NCBI GenBank assembly: GCA_021789895.1
Contig: JAJYIU010000006.1
Location: 1 to 64,000 of the forward strand
Reading direction: 5' to 3'
DNA from: Acidobacteriota bacterium
GTDB lineage: Bacteria; Acidobacteriota; Terriglobia; Terriglobales; SCQP01
DNA length: 64,000 bases
The translations under genes were made by a program, and so were the position numbers. Positions 41,829 through 55,428 of the stretch are shown one piece after another. Under the pieces are notes generated by a model. It had not been told where the DNA came from. It did no database searches and was given only the letters and a program-made list of their open reading frames with translations. The first letter of the stretch is position 1; each line of letters opens with the position of its first letter.

Positions 41829-43345
41829 TTACCGCAGGTGGTAGGCGGCGGTGCGGGCGAAGTTGAGCACGGCTTCGGGGAAGATGCCCAGCCAGAGTAC
41901 GGCCAAGACGCAAGCCGCCATGACCAAGCCAAAGGCGCCGGAAGCGGCTGGGGCGGGCACTTCCTGCTCGGCGGGGCGCATGTACAAATAAACGACGACG
42001 CGCAGGTAATAGAACGCCGCCACGGCGCTGTTGAGCACGGCGACGATGACCAGGCCGACCAGATGCGCCTGGAGGGCAGCGCGGAAGACGTAGAGCTTAC
42101 CGAAAAAACCGGCAGTGAGCGGCACGCCGATGAGCGAGAGCAGGAAAACGGTGAGCGCGGCGGCGGCGAGCGGGAAGCGGAAGCCCAGGCCGGCGTAGTC
42201 GCCCAATTCGACATAGCGTTCGTCGCGATGGGCGAAATGGGCCAGCACGCCAAAGGCGCCGAGATTCATGGCCACATACGCGGCCAGGTAGAAGAGGATG
42301 GACGCGATGCCGTTGCCGGGGACGAGGGGGGCGGAGGGGCCGGCTTGGGCGGCGAGGATGGCGGGATTGACGGCGAGGGCAGCGAAAGCGACCAGGATAT
42401 AGCCGGCATGCGCGATGGAGGAGTAGGCCAGCATGCGCTTGAGATTGGTTTGCAGCAGGGCGGCGACATTGCCGACGGTCATGGACAGCAGGGCGGCGGT
42501 CCAGACCAGCCAGAACCAGGCGTGCGCGTAGCCGTGCAGCGCGACGTAGAAGATGCGCAAAAAGACGACGAAGGCGGCGGCCTTGGGCGCGGTGGCGAGC
42601 ATACCGGTGACCAGCGCGGGAGCGCCTTCATAAACATCCGGGGTCCAGACCTGGAAAGGGACGGCGGAAACCTTGAAGGCGACGCCGACGAACATCAGGC
42701 CGGCGGCGGCGGGAATGAGGCTGGCGGTGGTCAGACCGCCGAGCGAGATCTTGCCGGCGACGCCGCGCGCGATGGCGTCAATCATGGTCGAGCCGGTGCC
42801 GCCGTAAATCAGCGCGATGCCGTAGAGGAAAAACGCGGTGGCGAAGGAGCCGAGCAGCAGGTACTTCAAGGCGGCTTCGGTCGAGCGCGGGGCATGGCGG
42901 CGGTAGCCGCAAAGCACGTAGCTGGCGATCGAGGAAATTTCCAGCCCGATGAAGATCATCACCAGCTCGACCGAGCCGACCATGAAATCCATGCCGACGG
43001 CGGCGAAGAGCAGCAGGGCGTAGAATTCGCCGCGTTCGAGCTGCTGGGCGCGGAGATAATCCATGCCCAGCAGAACCAGGACGATGGTGGCCAGGGCAAT
43101 CAGGAAATGGAAAAAGACGGCGAGCGGGTCCACGCGGAACAGGCCGGAGAAGGCGTCGCCGGGGAAGCGCGCCTGCACGAAGCAGGCGGCGAAGGCGGCA
43201 AGCGAGCCGATCAACGCAATCCAGCCGCCGGCGCGGCCGCGGCTGCCGGCGCGCGCGGGGCCTTCCACCAGCAGAATCAGCGCTCCGAACGCCGTCAGCA
43301 CGATTTCCGGCAGGATGCGGGCATACCAGACGGCGGGCACGAAGC

Positions 43346-43349
<4 letters not shown>
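41829..43349 (-). CDS. nuoN: NADH-quinone oxidoreductase subunit N
   Basis: A 506-residue antiporter-like, proton-pumping membrane subunit of complex I, last gene of the operon. About 14 hydrophobic segments; the conserved region LERGEFYALLLFAAVGMDFM, GLEISSIASYVLCGY, STEAALKYLLLGSFATAFFLYG carries the key Glu in the fifth helix and the Lys in EAALKY. LQTNLKRMLAYSSIAHAGYI holds the discontinuous-helix Lys. Start overlaps the nuoM stop by 4 bases (ATGA). Inner membrane. Confidence 0.95.
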
Positions 43350-44947
<1,598 letters not shown>

Positions 44948-44964: not shown

Positions 44965-46971
<2,007 letters not shown>

Positions 46972-47001
46972 CGGGAAAACCGGGGCGCGCCGGCCGGGCG
47001 C

Positions 47002-47313
47002 CTAATTTTTCATCAGGTCCATCTTGTCAATGTTGAGCGTGTTGCGATTGCGCACCACGGCAATGATGATCGCCAGCCCGACCGCGGCCTCGGCCGCGGC
47101 CACCACCATCACGAAAAAGACGAACAGGTTGCCGTCAATCGCGTTCTGGCGCAGGTAATGACTGAAGGCGACGAAGGTCAAGTTGACGCCGTTGAGCATC
47201 AGCTCGATCGAGATGAAGACCGTGATCAGGTCTTTTTTGAACAGGAACCCGGCCACGCCCAGCGCGAACAGCAGGGCGCTCAAGACCAGGTAATCCGCCA
47301 GGGATACCACCAT
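47002..47313 (-). CDS. nuoK: NADH-quinone oxidoreductase subunit K
   Basis: A 103-residue, three-helix membrane subunit. ATG 47313 was chosen because it overlaps the nuoJ TGA (TGATG) and gives the family length; an in-frame upstream extension lies inside nuoJ. Seen: [38 protein letters not shown] with the conserved helix-2 Glu, and [21 protein letters not shown] with the helix-3 Glu, both part of the proton path. Ends IDKMDLMKN. Inner membrane. Confidence 0.95.
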
Positions 47314-47879
47314 CAGGCTCCGGCTCCTTTTTCCCGGGTCATGGAATCCGCCGGCTCGGGGCATTCCTGCCTTGCCGGCTGCGGAGCCTCTTCCGGGCGC
47401 GCCGCCAGCATCACCGCGCCGGCCACGCCCACCAGGAAGAGCACCGAGGTGACTTCGAAGGGAAGCAGGTACTGATGAAACAAGGCCTGGCCGATATCGC
47501 CGATCTGGAACATCGGCTGTCCCAGGTTGGCGGGCACGCGGTGGTAGCGGCCGGCCACCCGCACCGCCAGCAGGATGGCCAGCAGGCCCGCCACCGGCGG
47601 TCCCAGCCAGCGCGCGGCGCGGCTGGCGCGCGAAGGCTCGCTGGGCTGGGCATTGAGCAGCATGATCACGAACACGAACAGCACCATGATGGCGCCGGCA
47701 TAGACCAGAATCTGTATGAAGGCGATGAATTCGGCGCCGAGCAGCAGGAACAGCACCGCCAGCGAGCCCATCACCAGCACCAGCGAAAGGGCGCTATGGA
47801 TGGGGGCCTTCTGCACCAGCAGGTTGATCGCGCCCGCCAGGGCGAGGCCGCCGAAGAGGATAAACAGCGCCAGTTGCAT
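47313..47879 (-). CDS. nuoJ: NADH-quinone oxidoreductase subunit J
   Basis: A 188-residue membrane subunit with about five hydrophobic segments. [47 protein letters not shown] contains the conserved helix-3 region with the pi-bulge Tyr. The C-terminal 25 residues after [10 protein letters not shown] are polar. It starts only 4 bases after the nuoH stop: nuoI, which normally lies between nuoH and nuoJ, is absent. Overlaps nuoK by 1 base. Inner membrane. Confidence 0.94.
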
Positions 47880-47883
47880 AGGC

Positions 47884-48900
47884 TTAGTGCAGCACCGCCA
47901 CCGCGAAGCTGGTGACCAGCACGTTGGCCAGCGCCAGTGGTACCAGCACTTTCCAGCCGAAGGCCATGAGCTGATCGTAGCGGAAACGCGGCAAGGTGCC
48001 GCGCACCCAGATGAAGAGGAAGAGGAAGGCCGCCACCTTCAGGGCGAACCAGAAGATGGGCAGCAGGATGCGCAGCGGCGCGGGGCCGAAGACCGGGCCC
48101 GACCAACCGCCGAGAAACACGATCGTGGCAACCGCGCTCACGGTGATCATGTTGGCGTACTCGGCGAGGAAGAACATGGCGAACTTCATCGCGCTGTACT
48201 CGGTATGGTAGCCCGCTCCCAGCTCGCCCTCGGCCTCGGGCAAATCGAAGGGGATGCGGTTGGTTTCGGCGAACCCGGCGGTGAGATAGATAAAAAAGGC
48301 CAGCCACTGCGTCCAGAGAAACCAGTGGCCGCCGGCCTGCGCCTCGACGATGCCGTGCAGGCTCAAGGTGCCGGCCAGCAGGATGGGGCCGATCAGCGCC
48401 AAGCCCAGCGACAGCTCGTAGCTGACCATCTGCGAGCCGGCGCGCAGCGAGCCCAGCAGCGAATACTTGCTGTTGGACGACCAGCCGGCCAGCACGATGC
48501 CGTACACCCCCAGCGAGGTCACGCCCAGCACGTAGAGCAGGCCGATATTCAGGTCGGTCAACTGCAGCGGAATGGTCCAGCCGTGGATCTGCAGCGGCGG
48601 GCCGACCGGAATCACCGCAATAGCCAGCAACGCCAGCGTGACCGACAGAATCGGGGCCAGGAGGTACAGCCCTTTTTCCGAAGCCGTCGGGGTAATGTCT
48701 TCCTTGAGGATGAACTTGACCGCATCGGCGAGCGGCTGCAGCAAGCCAAACGGGCCGACGCGCGTGGGGCCGACCCGCGATTGCATGCGGGCGACGATTT
48801 TGCGCTCGGCCAACTGGATATAGGCGATCAGGGTGGTGAGAATGAAGAGCGCAATCAGCGCTTTCACGATCGCGACCACCACGAACGTGCCGATCGTCAT
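47884..48900 (-). CDS. nuoH: NADH-quinone oxidoreductase subunit H
   Basis: A 338-residue membrane subunit forming the quinone chamber with NuoB and NuoD. Seen: QLAERKIVARMQSRVGPTRVGPFGLLQPLADAVKFILKED (family signature), GVYGIVLAGWSSNSKYSLLGSLRAGSQMVSYE, and AETNRIPFDLPEAEGELGAGYHTEYSAMKF with the conserved acidic loop. About eight membrane helices. Its ATG overlaps the nuoG stop by 4 bases. Inner membrane. Its NuoB partner is not encoded in this operon. Confidence 0.96.
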   Translation of the reverse strand: MTIGTFVVVAIVKALIALFILTTLIAYIQLAERKIVARMQSRVGPTRVGPFGLLQPLADAVKFILKEDITPTASEKGLYLLAPILSVTLALLAIAVIPVGPPLQIHGWTIPLQLTDLNIGLLYVLGVTSLGVYGIVLAGWSSNSKYSLLGSLRAGSQMVSYELSLGLALIGPILLAGTLSLHGIVEAQAGGHWFLWTQWLAFFIYLTAGFAETNRIPFDLPEAEGELGAGYHTEYSAMKFAMFFLAEYANMITVSAVATIVFLGGWSGPVFGPAPLRILLPIFWFALKVAAFLFLFIWVRGTLPRFRYDQLMAFGWKVLVPLALANVLVTSFAVAVLH

Positions 48901-51188
48901 GGCCGCCCCTCCGCAGTTTTGCGCAGGTACTTTTCCATCACCGAGTTCAAGGCCGCGCTGTAGCGGCCCAGGGTGCCGGCCTCGAACAGGCGGTCGCGGC
49001 CGCCGGCCTGGCCCTCCGGATGCGGCCCGGCGGCGGCGGCGATGGGCGTTGCCAACTGGCTCTGCCCGGCCCAGAGCTGCAGCAAGGAAACGTCATAGCC
49101 GCGAACCGCGCCGCGAATTTCCTGCAATACTTTTTCCGGGCTGGGCTCGCCCCATTCCAGGCCCAGCAGCGCCGCCAGCTCGTAGAAGATTTCCAGGTCG
49201 GACTTGGCCCCTTCGAATTCGGCGGCGCGGCGCTGGAGTTGCACTTCGCCGCAGGTGTTGGTCAGCGTGCCCTGCTTTTCGTAGGCGCAGAGGGCGGGCA
49301 GCACCACGTTCGCCTGGCGCGCGGTTTCGGTCAGGAACAGGTCCTGGGCGACCATAAAGCCGGTTTCGGGATCGCGCTCGATTCCCAGCCGGCCGAATGG
49401 ATTCGCGCCCACGGTATAAAGCGCGCCCAGTTTGCCCGCGGCGAAGGCGCGCGCCATCTGGCCGGCGTCCATGCCGGGCGCGGCGGGGATTTCGCCGCCC
49501 CAGAGCCGGGCGAAACGCTCGCGCGCGGCCGCGTCGCCGAGCGGTTCGTAACCGGGCAGCAGATCGGGATACAGCCCCATGTCGGCCGCGCCGCGGGAAT
49601 TGGAATCGTCGCCGGCGAGGATGAAGCGGGTCCGGCCGCTGCGCGCAAATGCGAACTCCGCCAGCGCGGCCAGCGCCGGGCCGCTCAACTCCGCCCCGAT
49701 GACGGCGATCAGGTCGGCTTCGCCCGCCACCAGGCGGCGGAAATCGGCCAGCGATTCGGCCACCGGCGCGGCGGGCGGAATCGGCGTCTGCGGCCAGCGC
49801 TTGTCATCGGGCGGCAGCGCGCGGAACATCTGCGCCGCCGGCGGCTCCGGCCCGGGCTGGGCCAGGTATTGCAGCGCCTGCAGCAGCGTTCCCGCTGCGA
49901 CCCGGGCGCTGCGGTGCGACTGGCGTTCCAGTTTGATTTCGCGATCGGCGAGGGTATAGATGCGCGCGCCGCTCAAGCGCCAGGCCCAACGCAGGTTCCA
50001 GGCCAGCAGCGGATGCTGCTCGGTCGGATCGCCGCCGGCCACCAGCACCGCCGCCGCCGTTTTCAGATCGCCGGTAGCGGCCAGGCCGGCGTTGGCGCGG
50101 CCGGCCAGCAGGGCCAACAGGGCGGGGAAGTCGGCGCTGCGGTGATGATCTATATGGTTGGTGCCAAGCCCGGTGCGGGCCAGCTTTTGCAGCAGATAGC
50201 TTTCCTCGTTCAGGCAGCGGGTCGAGCCGATCACGCCCACGCCCGCCCCGCCGTCGCGCTGGCGGCGCAGCCCGGCGGCGGCGGTTTCCAGCGCATGCGC
50301 CCAACTCGCCGGCTGCAGCCGGCCTTCGCGCCGCACCAGCGGCTGGCGCAGGCGCTCGTCATGGCGGGTAAAGTCGAAGGCGTAGCGCCCCTTGATGCAG
50401 AGGAAGTCGCCGTTGATGCCGCTTTTGTCGCGGTTGTCGCCGCGTAGAATCTGCCCGTTGCGCACCCCCAGCGTGGTGCGGCAGCCATCGCCGCAGAAGG
50501 TGCAGACGGCGGCGGTGTGCTGCATTTCCCAGGGCCGGGTCTTGTAGCGGTAGGCGCCGCTGGTGAGCGCACCCACCGGGCAGATATCAATACACATGCC
50601 GCATTCTTCGCACTGCAGGTGGTCGCCGTGGTTGGGAATGATGCTCGAACCGACGCCGCGCTGGCCGCCGATGCCCAGCGCCCAGACGTCCATGCCCTCG
50701 CCGCAGACGCGCACGCAGCGATAGCAAAGGATGCAGCGCGGCCGGTCGAAATAGACGATCGGCGACCACTGCTGCTCGTCGCGATGCCGCTTGGGCTCGA
50801 TGAACCGGCTGGAAGCGGCGCCGTAGCGGAAGGTCATGTCCTGCAATTCGCACTGCCCGCCGGCGTCGCAGACCGGGCAGTCGAGCGGGTGGTTGGTGAG
50901 GATGAATTCGATCTGGCCCTTGCGCGCCGCCTTCACCGCCTCGGTCTCGGTGCGCACCACCATCCCCTCCGCCACCGGGACCGTGCAGGCGGTCTGCAGC
51001 TTGGGCATCTTCTCGATTTCCACCAAGCACATGCGGCAGGCGGCCTGAAGCGAAAGATTAGGGTAGTAGCAGAACGACGGCACCTCGATTCCGGCCGCGC
51101 GGCAAGCTTCGATCAGCAGCATGCCGGCGGGCGCGGTCAGCGCCCGTCCATTGACGGTCAAATTCACCGTGGTCTTCGCCTCGCTCAT
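48897..51188 (-). CDS. nuoG: NADH-quinone oxidoreductase subunit G
   Basis: A 763-residue peripheral-arm iron-sulfur subunit. ATG 51188 ([10 protein letters not shown]) overlaps the nuoF TGA (ATGA). A [2Fe-2S] ferredoxin domain comes first ([24 protein letters not shown], then ACTVPV), followed by the His/Cys [4Fe-4S] site ([19 protein letters not shown]), two further [4Fe-4S] motifs ([27 protein letters not shown]) and a molybdopterin-oxidoreductase-like domain opening with CTFCGDGC. The domain order is that of bacterial NuoG. It overlaps nuoH by 4 bases. Cytoplasmic side. Confidence 0.95.
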
Positions 51189-52483
51189 GCCTCCGCCCCG
51201 TGTACCGCGCCGAACGGGCACGCCCGCCCGCGCAAATGGTCTTCGAATTCGCCGCGGAACTTGCGCACGATGGAGATGATCGGCATGGCGGCCGCATCGC
51301 CCAGCGGGCAGAAAGTCCGGCCCAGGATGTTTTCCGAAACGCTGCGAAACAGCTCGATATCCTCCTGCCGCCCGCCGCCGCTATGGAAGCGGCGCAGGGC
51401 CAGCTCCAGCCAGTTGGTGCCCTCGCGGCAGGGGACGCACCAGCCGCAGGATTCATGCCGGTAGAAGTGCATGATGCGCAGCGCGAACTCGACCATGCAG
51501 GTATGCTCGTCGGCCACCACCACCCCGCCGGAGCCGAGAAACGAGCCCAGCTTGGCAATGGAGTCAAAATCCATATTGGCGCTGAGGGCTTCCTCGGCGG
51601 TGAGGATGGGGGTGGAACTGCCGCCCGGCACCACCGCTTTCAGCTTGCGCCCGCCGGGCAGGCCGCCGCCGAGTTCCTCGATCATGCGCCGCAGCGGAAA
51701 GCCGAGCGGCAGCTCGTACACGCCGGGGGTATTGAGGTGCCCGCTGAGGCAGAACAGCCGCGTGCCGCCGTTTTTCGGCGGCCCAAAGCCGGCAAACCAG
51801 GCGCCGCCGCCCAGCAGGATGTGCGGGACGCTGGCCAGGGTTTCGACGTTGTTGATGACCGTCGGCCCGCCGTAAAGGCCGGAGGTGGCGGGGAAGGGCG
51901 GCTTCATGCGCGGAAAGCCGCGCTTGCCTTCGAGCGACTCCATCAGCGCCGATTCCTCGCCGCATTCGTAGGCGCCGGCACCGCTGTGCGCGGCCAGATG
52001 AAACTCGAAATCGCTGCCCAGAATGTTTTTGCCCAGCAGCCCGGCGGCATAGGCTTCGGCCAGGGCGCGCTCGACGATCTCGATCAGGTAGCGATACTCG
52101 CCGCGGATGAAGATGTAGCCCTGCCGGGCGCCGATCGCGCGCGCGCAGATGCTCATGCCCTCGATCACGGCGAAGGGATCGCGCTCCAGAATGACGCGGT
52201 CTTTGCAGGTGCCGGGCTCGCTCTCGTCGGCGTTGCAGAGCACGTATTTGGGCTTGGGCGACTGCGCCGGCACGAACGACCATTTCATGCCGGTGGGAAA
52301 GCCGGCGCCGCCGCGGCCGCGCAGGCCCGACTGCTTGACTTCGTCAATGATCGCCGCCGGGGTCATGGCCAGCGCTTTTTCCAGCGCGCGGTAACCGTCG
52401 CTGCCGCGGTAGCCGGCAAGAGTCGCCGCGGCGTCGTCGTCGAAGCGCCGGCTGACAATGCGGATTTCGGCCGGATGGCTCAT
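51185..52483 (-). CDS. nuoF: NADH-quinone oxidoreductase subunit F (NADH/FMN-binding)
   Basis: A 432-residue subunit that oxidises NADH. ATG 52483 ([10 protein letters not shown]) overlaps the nuoE TGA (ATGA) and gives the family length, so the long upstream open frame was not used. Seen: [17 protein letters not shown] (NADH site), [22 protein letters not shown] (FMN/NADH site), and the N3 [4Fe-4S] ligands [12 protein letters not shown] plus the Cys in [12 protein letters not shown]. Works with NuoE and NuoG as the electron-input module. Cytoplasmic. Confidence 0.96.
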
Positions 52484-53037
52484 GCCCGTGGCTTGCCCTT
52501 TCCCTCCGCCGGCGCGGCGCCGTTGCCGGGGTAAGCGGGGTCGGGCCGCGGCGGCGCGCCGCGGCGATAGCCGTCCAGAATCTGATCCACCCGCTCCGGG
52601 GTCAGGTGATGAAAGAAGTCGTAATTGACCTGCATCGCCGGCGCCCAACTGCAGGCGCCCATGCACTCGACTTCTTCCAGCGAAAACGTCCCCTCCTCGC
52701 CGCCGCCGCTCCCGGCCGCCGCGCCGTCCAGGCGATGCCGGCAGTGCTGCAGGATGCGCTCGCCGCCGCGCAGCAGGCAACTGATGTTGGTGCAGACCTG
52801 CACGTGATAGCGGCCCGCCGGCTGGGTGCGCAGCATGGAGTAGTAGCCGATCGCTTCGCGCACCGCGATTTCGGGAATTTCCAGCCGCTCGGCCACGGCC
52901 GTGATCGCTTCCGGCGTGAGCCAGCCGATTTCGTCCTGCGCGTACAGCAGCATCGGCACCAGCGCCGAGCGCTTGTGCGGGTACGACGCCAGCAGCTTGC
53001 GAAAGCGTTCTTCCAATTCCGGGCTGAAAGTCGCCAT
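52480..53037 (-). CDS. nuoE: NADH-quinone oxidoreductase subunit E
   Basis: A 185-residue thioredoxin-like [2Fe-2S] subunit. An N-terminal helical bundle ([22 protein letters not shown]) is followed by the cluster ligands CTNISC and CMGAC ([29 protein letters not shown]). The C-terminal 30 residues are Pro/Gly-rich. Overlaps nuoD by 1 base and nuoF by 4 bases. Cytoplasmic. Confidence 0.95.
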
Positions 53038-54260
53038 CAGCGGTCCACCTCGCCCAGCACGATATCAATGCTGCCAATCACCGCTACCACGTCGGCCAGC
53101 AGCCGGCCTTCCACCATCCGCGGCAGCGCCTGCAGGTTGACGTAGGAAGGCGAGCGCATGTGCACCCGGAAGGGCCGCGGGCCGCCGTCGCTGACCAGGT
53201 AATAGCCCATCTGCCCGCGCGGCGATTCCACCGCCTGGTACACCTCGCCCGGCGGCACCGCAAAGCCCTCGGTCACGATCTTGAAGTGATAGATGAGGGC
53301 TTCCATCTCCGATTTCATCTGGTCGCGGTCGGGCAGGGTCACGCCCGGCGCGTCGGCCTTGAAATGGCCCGCGGGCATGCCCTCCAGCGCCTGGCGTATG
53401 ATCTTCACGCTCTCGCGCATTTCCTGCAGCCGGATGAGATAGCGCGCATAGACGTCGCTTTCGGTGCGCACCGGCACCTCGAACTGGAACTCCTCATAGC
53501 AGGAATACGGCCGGTCGCGGCGCAGATCGAGGCTGATGCCGGCGGCGCGCAGGCAGGGGCCGGTCACGCCCAGGGCGATGGCGTCATCCGGCGAGATGTA
53601 GCCGACGCCGCGCGTGCGCCCGCGCCAGATGGTGTTGCGGGTGAGCAGCGCCTCGTATTCGTCCACCCGGTCGGGGAAGTAGCCGATGAATTTCCGCACC
53701 CGTTCGAGCATGCCCAGCGGCGGCTCCAGCGCCAGCCCGCCGACGCGGAAATACGAGGTCATCATCCGCTGGCCGCTGACGTATTCGAAAATTTTCAGGA
53801 TTTCCTCGCGCTCGCGGAAGCAGTAGAGGAACACCGTCATCGCGCCAATGTCGAGCGCGTGCGTGCCCAGCCAGACCAGATGGCTGTTGAGGCGGGTCAG
53901 CTCGTTGAGCAGAACGCGGGTCCAGGCGGCCTTGCGCGGCGGCTCGAGCTGCAGCAGTTTTTCCACCGCCAGCACGTAGCAGAGATTGTTGGTCAGCGGG
54001 CAGAGATAGTCTATGCGGTCGGTGAGCGTGACCGCCTGCTGGTAAAACTTCGATTCGCAGCTCTTTTCGATGCCGGTATGCAGGTAGCCGATATCGGAAC
54101 TGGCCTTGACCACCAACTCGCCGTCAATTTCCAGCACCACGCGCAGTACGCCGTGAGTCGAGGGGTGCTGCGGCCCCATGTTCAGGATCAGATGGCGGCC
54201 GTCGGCGCTGCGTTCGCTGCCGAACGGATTGGCTGGAGGGAGCGGGTTCGCGGCGCCCAT
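53037..54260 (-). CDS. nuoD: NADH-quinone oxidoreductase subunit D
   Basis: A 407-residue quinone-binding subunit related to hydrogenase large subunits. ATG 54260 ([13 protein letters not shown]) overlaps the nuoC TAA by 1 base; an upstream open frame in nuoC was not used. Seen: [23 protein letters not shown] with the quinone-site His, [18 protein letters not shown]-like [37 protein letters not shown] and the terminal DIVLGEVDR. Next to NuoB in the assembled enzyme, yet no nuoB is present in the cluster. Cytoplasmic face. Confidence 0.96.
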
Positions 54261-54736
54261 TAGCGGTAGCCCTCCACGGGATAATCCTTGCGCAGCGGGT
54301 GTCCTTCCCAATCGTCCGGCAGCAGGATCCGGCGCAGGCCGGGATGGCCTTCGAAACGCACTCCAAACAGGTCGAAAACCTCGCGCTCGAACCAGTTGGC
54401 CGTGGGCCAGATGCTGGTGACCGAGGGCACCGGCGCCGACTCGTTGGCGCCCACCTTGACCCGCAGCCAGTCGCGGCGATGGACGGAATAAAGCTGGTAG
54501 GCGACTTCGAAGCGCGGATCGGCGGTGCGCCAATCCACGCAGCTCAGGTCGCAAAGCAGCTTGAAATCCAGCTCGGCGTCATCGCGCAGCGCCAGCATCG
54601 CCGCCGCCAGCCGCGCCGCGGGAATCCAGACCGTTAGCTCGCCGCGGTCGTGCCGCACCCGCTCGATCGAGCCGGGCAGCAGTTGCTCCAGCCGCTGGGC
54701 CGCCGCGTGGGCGGCAATGTCTTCGTTCAATGCCAT
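54260..54736 (-). CDS. nuoC: NADH-quinone oxidoreductase subunit C
   Basis: A 158-residue (30 kDa-type) subunit. Seen: LLCDLSCVDWRTADPRFEVAYQLYSVHRRDWLRVKV, then the signature PSVTSIWPTANWFEREVFDLFGVRFEGHPGLRRILLPDDWEGHPLRKDYP (quoted here only as landmarks: ANWFEREVFDLFGV and DDWEGHPLRKDYP). Shorter than some NuoC proteins but complete. Starts 52 bases after the nuoA stop, a gap too small for nuoB, the gene that normally lies there. Confidence 0.94.
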   Translation of the reverse strand: MALNEDIAAHAAAQRLEQLLPGSIERVRHDRGELTVWIPAARLAAAMLALRDDAELDFKLLCDLSCVDWRTADPRFEVAYQLYSVHRRDWLRVKVGANESAPVPSVTSIWPTANWFEREVFDLFGVRFEGHPGLRRILLPDDWEGHPLRKDYPVEGYR

Positions 54737-54788
54737 GGGTGCAATCGAACCAACTCAAAACCGGCCGCCGGGAGGTTTACGGCCACGC

Positions 54789-55205
54789 TCATTCCGCCCG
54801 CTCCGGCTGGTTCCAATCAATTACGCCTTTTCTCCAAATGTAGTAAAAGCCCGCCAGCACAATACCGACATACACCAGCATTTCGAGAAAACCGAACAGC
54901 AGCAACTGGCGATAGACCACTGCCCACGGCAGCAGGAAGACTGCTTCGATGTCGAACAGGATGAAAACGATGGCGACCAGATAAAACTTCACTGCGAAGC
55001 GGTGCTGGGCATCCCCGGTCGGAATGATGCCGCACTCGTAGGGCGAAAGTTTGCGCCGGGTGCGGCGGTGCTGTCCGACCAGATAGGAGATGGCAACGAT
55101 CACCAGGGCAAAGCCCAGCGCCAGCACAAATTGAATCAGCACCGGCACATAGTGGACGATGTAAGGTCCGGGGGTGGCGGGCTGGGCGGGTAAGGCCACG
55201 ATCAT
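54789..55205 (-). CDS. nuoA: NADH-quinone oxidoreductase subunit A
   Basis: A 138-residue, three-helix membrane subunit, first gene of the operon. ATG 55205 (MIVALPAQ) is the likely start; the frame is open further up without family similarity. Seen: YVPVLIQFVLALGFALVIVAISYLVG, KLSPYECGIIPTGDAQHRFAVKFYLVAIVFILFDIEAVFLLPWA region with the conserved YECG and FDIEAVFL motifs. A strong promoter lies at 55399-55428, leaving a leader of about 187 nt. Inner membrane. Confidence 0.95.
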   Translation of the reverse strand: MIVALPAQPATPGPYIVHYVPVLIQFVLALGFALVIVAISYLVGQHRRTRRKLSPYECGIIPTGDAQHRFAVKFYLVAIVFILFDIEAVFLLPWAVVYRQLLLFGFLEMLVYVGIVLAGFYYIWRKGVIDWNQPERAE

Positions 55206-55398: not shown

Positions 55399-55428
55399 AC
55401 TATACGGTTGCCCGCGCCGCGCTGTCAA
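55399..55428 (-). promoter_or_regulatory. Strong putative promoter of the nuo operon
   Basis: On the minus strand TTGACA (plus 55423-55428, perfect -35) and TATAGT (plus 55399-55404, 5/6) are 18 bases apart. Initiation is predicted near 55392, about 187 nt before nuoA. The 339-base nuoA/RND intergenic region (55206-55544) holds no other recognisable gene; an AT-rich patch at 55495-55505 may include the promoter for the + strand pair. Confidence 0.6.

Follow-up and report, generated by a model that had tools for sequence, protein, structure and literature searches.

The 12-gene nuo operon in the window (the whole 64-kb stretch of DNA that was analysed) very probably encodes the main proton-pumping NADH:quinone oxidoreductase (complex I) of a soil acidobacterium from the class Terriglobia, an enzyme that would be an ordinary 14-subunit complex I with nuoB and nuoI supplied in trans. 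We propose that these genes for Q-module iron-sulfur subunits, nuoB (cluster N2) and nuoI (clusters N6a and N6b), have left the operon and are now expressed from separate sites, and that the 12 operon products assemble with the two trans-made proteins into a complex that would function normally. The same split was found across the class Terriglobia, which makes it a stable inherited rearrangement, and neither a broken enzyme nor an assembly error. The genes and junctions identified in the window were as follows.

55399..55428, minus strand: candidate sigma-70 promoter of the operon, TTGACA-18-TATAGT, 11/12 consensus matches
54789..55205, minus strand: nuoA (PF00507, 123.8 bits; NCBIfam subunit A)
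54737..54788, minus strand: nuoA-nuoC spacer, the usual nuoB site, 52 bases, without a NuoB remnant
54260..54736, minus strand: nuoC (TIGR01961, 144.8 bits, above cut-off)
53037..54260, minus strand: nuoD (TIGR01962, 562.6 bits)
52480..53037, minus strand: nuoE (TIGR01958, 153.3 bits, above the curated cut-off)
51185..52483, minus strand: nuoF (TIGR01959, 599 bits, above the curated cut-off)
48897..51188, minus strand: nuoG (TIGR01973, 455.4 bits, slightly below the cut-off of 470.05, with a match spanning nearly the whole profile)
47884..48900, minus strand: nuoH (NuoH profiles, up to 441 bits)
47880..47883, minus strand: nuoH-nuoJ junction, the usual nuoI site, 4 bases, nuoI absent
47313..47879, minus strand: nuoJ (NuoJ profiles)
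47002..47313, minus strand: nuoK (NuoK profiles)
44965..46971, minus strand: nuoL (TIGR01974, 706.7 bits)
43346..44947, minus strand: nuoM (TIGR01972, 578.5 bits)
41829..43349, minus strand: nuoN (TIGR01770, 400.8 bits)

NCBIfam profiles placed the 12 genes on the minus strand in the order nuoA-C-D-E-F-G-H-J-K-L-M-N, with all three N-module subunits, NuoE, NuoF and NuoG, encoded among them. The original prediction held that 52 bases without nuoB separate nuoA from nuoC, and the coordinates bear this out, as nuoA with its stop codon extends to 54789 and the ATG of nuoC lies at 54736. No nuoB profile matched in the window, and the same genome gave matches only on contigs C39 and C54; tblastn of three NuoB queries against the window returned chance matches only (best E 0.055), and GxxCCxxE and GCPPRPE-like motifs were absent from all six frames. 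The parallel absence of nuoI had been overlooked; in the window, the sole NuoI-like profile match was the ferredoxin domain of NuoG. The canonical single-operon arrangement, with nuoB between nuoA and nuoC and nuoI between nuoH and nuoJ, is thus lacking here, the two gaps measuring only 52 and 4 bases. We also considered a nuoB remnant inside the spacer and rejected it, since the spacer had no tblastn match and the spacers of relatives are short and of unrelated sequence. An 807-aa stop-free frame on the plus strand (45052-47475), antisense to nuoL and nuoK, most likely results from the high G+C content of the coding sequence.

Examination of the genome containing the window (a 3.75 Mb draft in 79 contigs, about 96% complete) revealed the two missing genes, each alone and about 61 kb apart on C39.

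C39:23402-23986, plus strand: lone nuoB, profile match above the curated cut-off
C39:85501-86034, minus strand: lone nuoI, profile match above the curated cut-off

The lone NuoB retains all four N2 cysteines (GLACCAIE, GACATSGG, PGCPPRPE), and the lone NuoI has both 4Fe-4S motifs intact, CVACFLCAAACP and CIFCGYCVEACP, with every N6a/N6b cysteine present. The closest solved relatives of the two proteins are NADH-quinone oxidoreductase subunits 6 and 9 (PDB 2fug/4hea). Together with the 12 operon genes they bring the genome to all 14 Nuo subunits, in more than one cluster, which is a split complex I gene set. The original prediction had proposed either that nuoB is encoded elsewhere or that the operon makes a non-standard complex, and had held that ordinary decay was not involved. 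We agree on the last point, and the lone nuoB supports the first proposal; the second is unsupported, because the lone nuoB and nuoI complete a normal 14-subunit set. Within the neighbourhood of the lone nuoB, only the directly downstream gene (HD-domain-like by eye) was common among loci, at 7 of 56, and the remaining neighbours changed, which would fit independent expression.

The arrangement is widespread among relatives, the nearest named of which are Acidobacteria/Terriglobia. In each of the 13 family genomes in which nuoA was matched (that of the window and 12 further ones), nuoA is followed directly by nuoC, and the profile matches of the two genes are about 50-240 bases apart, too short a distance to fit nuoB. 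Six of these 13 family operons were read completely, and all six are without both nuoB and nuoI. All ten genomes sampled from another family of the same order also have the operon A-C-D-E-F-G-H-J-K-L-M-N, as do eight genomes to which named loci belong, among them Edaphobacter (now Tunturiibacter) lichenicola and two species of Granulicella. For two genomes (G167 and G170, loci L370 and L376), the stretch read contained only A-C-D-E-F-G-H; nuoJ to nuoN were not found there, and the contig continues. Among the best 80 nuoB loci, whose surroundings were covered for up to 10 kb on each side and less where contigs were short, the 47 closest from named records (L115-L161) had no other nuo gene nearby, and nearly all from L163 onward sit in nuoA-nuoB-nuoC operons. 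In the isolates E. lichenicola and Granulicella rosea, nuoA, nuoB and nuoI each occur exactly once and far apart, and three genomes that are 99-100% complete (G035, G057 and G136) likewise have single copies of each. In these genomes, therefore, the 12-gene operon has no candidate source of NuoB and NuoI other than the lone genes. Two of the lone loci had additional features. A metagenome-assembled genome titled Bacillota, probably misbinned or mislabelled, carries a lone nuoB that shares 83% identity with its Terriglobia counterpart (L145), and a partial second nuoB-like stretch with 71% identity lies about 2 kb downstream of another lone nuoB (L144:12595-12810).

Phylogenetic analysis linked the lone genes to the operon. 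Lone NuoB proteins form one clade (96/97), which corresponds to that of NuoD from the 12-gene operon (100/99). The two trees share their main branching, with Bryobacter-like genomes, the family of the window and Acidobacteriaceae as the branches. At the level of coding sequence, lone NuoB and NuoI are under purifying selection comparable to that on nuoD and nuoH, with dN/dS of about 0.08 for lone nuoB and nuoI versus 0.09-0.10 for nuoD and nuoH in a comparison of two same-genus genomes.

The search of the genome for NuoB homologues and further nuo clusters, as proposed in the original prediction, yielded not only the lone nuoB but also a second, complete and divergent 14-gene operon with its own nuoB and nuoI on C54 (L047), so that the genome holds two nuoB genes, one in each context, and two nuoI genes above cut-off in the same two places. 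Proteins of the C54 operon are only 27-53% identical to those of the window operon and to the lone proteins. Conceivably, this second operon, which encodes both NuoB and NuoI, supplies them to the complex of the 12-gene operon, but we consider this very improbable, as several relatives keep the 12-gene operon although they are without a second nuoA/nuoB set, and C54 proteins fall far off in both the NuoB and NuoD trees, with C54 NuoB on a long separate branch. The C54-type operon occurs in some family genomes but not in others, and in this species subunits may be cross-used between the two nuo systems.

Two further explanations were weighed against supply by the lone genes. The physical separation of these genes from the operon would also be expected if the lone genes served another enzyme and the operon complex contained neither NuoB nor NuoI. 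There is very little likelihood of this, given that both lone proteins match complex I profiles above cut-off, that several genomes have no further copies of their genes, that the tree of lone NuoB agrees with that of the operon NuoD, and that NuoB carries cluster N2, which is needed for quinone reduction. A local assembly or sequencing deletion that took nuoB from the contig might be suspected in a 79-contig draft, but its probability is close to nil: the nuoA-nuoC spacing is short in 12 other family genomes and also in cultured isolates, on large contigs, nuoI is missing likewise at a different spot, and intact lone copies of both genes lie elsewhere in the genome. The comparison of spacing in related genomes thus refutes a local deletion. 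The preferred reading remains an ordinary complex I completed by the lone nuoB and nuoI.

Layouts in other Acidobacteriota families suggest the order in which the two genes departed. Some have nuoB in place and nuoI gone from operons that contain nuoE and nuoF (L240-L242, L269-L271), with the nuoI of such nuoB-keeping families located on other contigs or far away, and lone NuoI proteins cluster together with moderate support (82/83). These nuoB-keeping, nuoI-less operons and the grouping of NuoI suggest that nuoI was first to leave, probably early in Acidobacteriota, and that nuoB followed later, in the Terriglobia ancestor. Five further families have an A-C-D-H-J-K-L-M-N operon, without nuoE, nuoF and nuoG and also without nuoB and nuoI, and in each genome an adjacent nuoB-nuoI pair occurs elsewhere (L257, L261, L273, L278, L281; L379-L381). 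At seven loci titled mostly Acidobacteria, with one Vicinamibacterales (L163, L165, L168, L173, L177, L269, L270), the nuo operon retains nuoB, but neither nuoG nor nuoI turned up in the nuoF-nuoH and nuoH-nuoJ intervals.

The TTGACA-18-TATAGT sequence upstream of nuoA is likely the sigma-70 promoter of the operon. One such pattern was found versus 0.3 expected, and similar sequences were seen by eye upstream of nuoA in relatives. The operon leader had no Rfam match to a riboswitch or other known RNA, and a by-eye comparison of the regions upstream of nuoA, nuoB and nuoI established no common regulatory motif. The repeated loss of exactly nuoB and nuoI from Acidobacteriota nuo operons could conceivably be adaptive, with the genes' own promoters letting the cell gate complex I assembly independently of the remaining 12 subunits; the detached nuoB-nuoI pair in five other families is a hint in this direction, although we regard the idea as speculative and rather unlikely.

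The Terriglobia system resembles the canonical 14-gene nuoA-N (NDH-1) operon in gene order, in the tightly overlapping arrangement of the 12 genes that remain and in its 14 subunits, and differs in having nuoB and nuoI at two separate loci. Main-text passages of a study of 'split' complex I (Genome Biol Evol 2025, PMC12361115) report split sets alongside single-cluster ones within most clades, and complete complex I in most Acidobacteriota species. The split sets described there and that of the Terriglobia genome alike comprise all 14 subunits outside a single cluster, and these passages do not mention the class-wide removal of nuoB and nuoI seen here. In Nitrospina gracilis NUO-2 (Front Microbiol 2013, PMC3578206), nuoB2 is likewise apart from the other nuo clusters, but nuoF2 also lies outside, the rest is in two clusters with nuoI within one, and the enzyme is a proposed ferredoxin-linked variant, unlike the ordinary complex I that we propose for Terriglobia. 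In the literature searched, of which coverage was partial, we did not find the nuoB/nuoI pattern described, and statements on the nuo layout of Acidobacteria were general only. As 'split' complex I is already known, we view the class-wide Terriglobia removal of both genes as a modest new variant.

Our model would mean that nuoB and nuoI need no co-transcription with the rest of complex I, across a whole bacterial class and over long evolutionary time. Operon-based annotation would wrongly label these abundant soil bacteria as complex I-deficient. Acidobacteriota also offer a case in which the break-up of an operon can be traced through stepwise layouts. Outside this phylum, one genome titled Methylomirabilota (G173, L162) has two nuoB genes separated by about 6 kb on a single contig, as well as two nuoA genes on a different contig, and possibly represents another split complex I.
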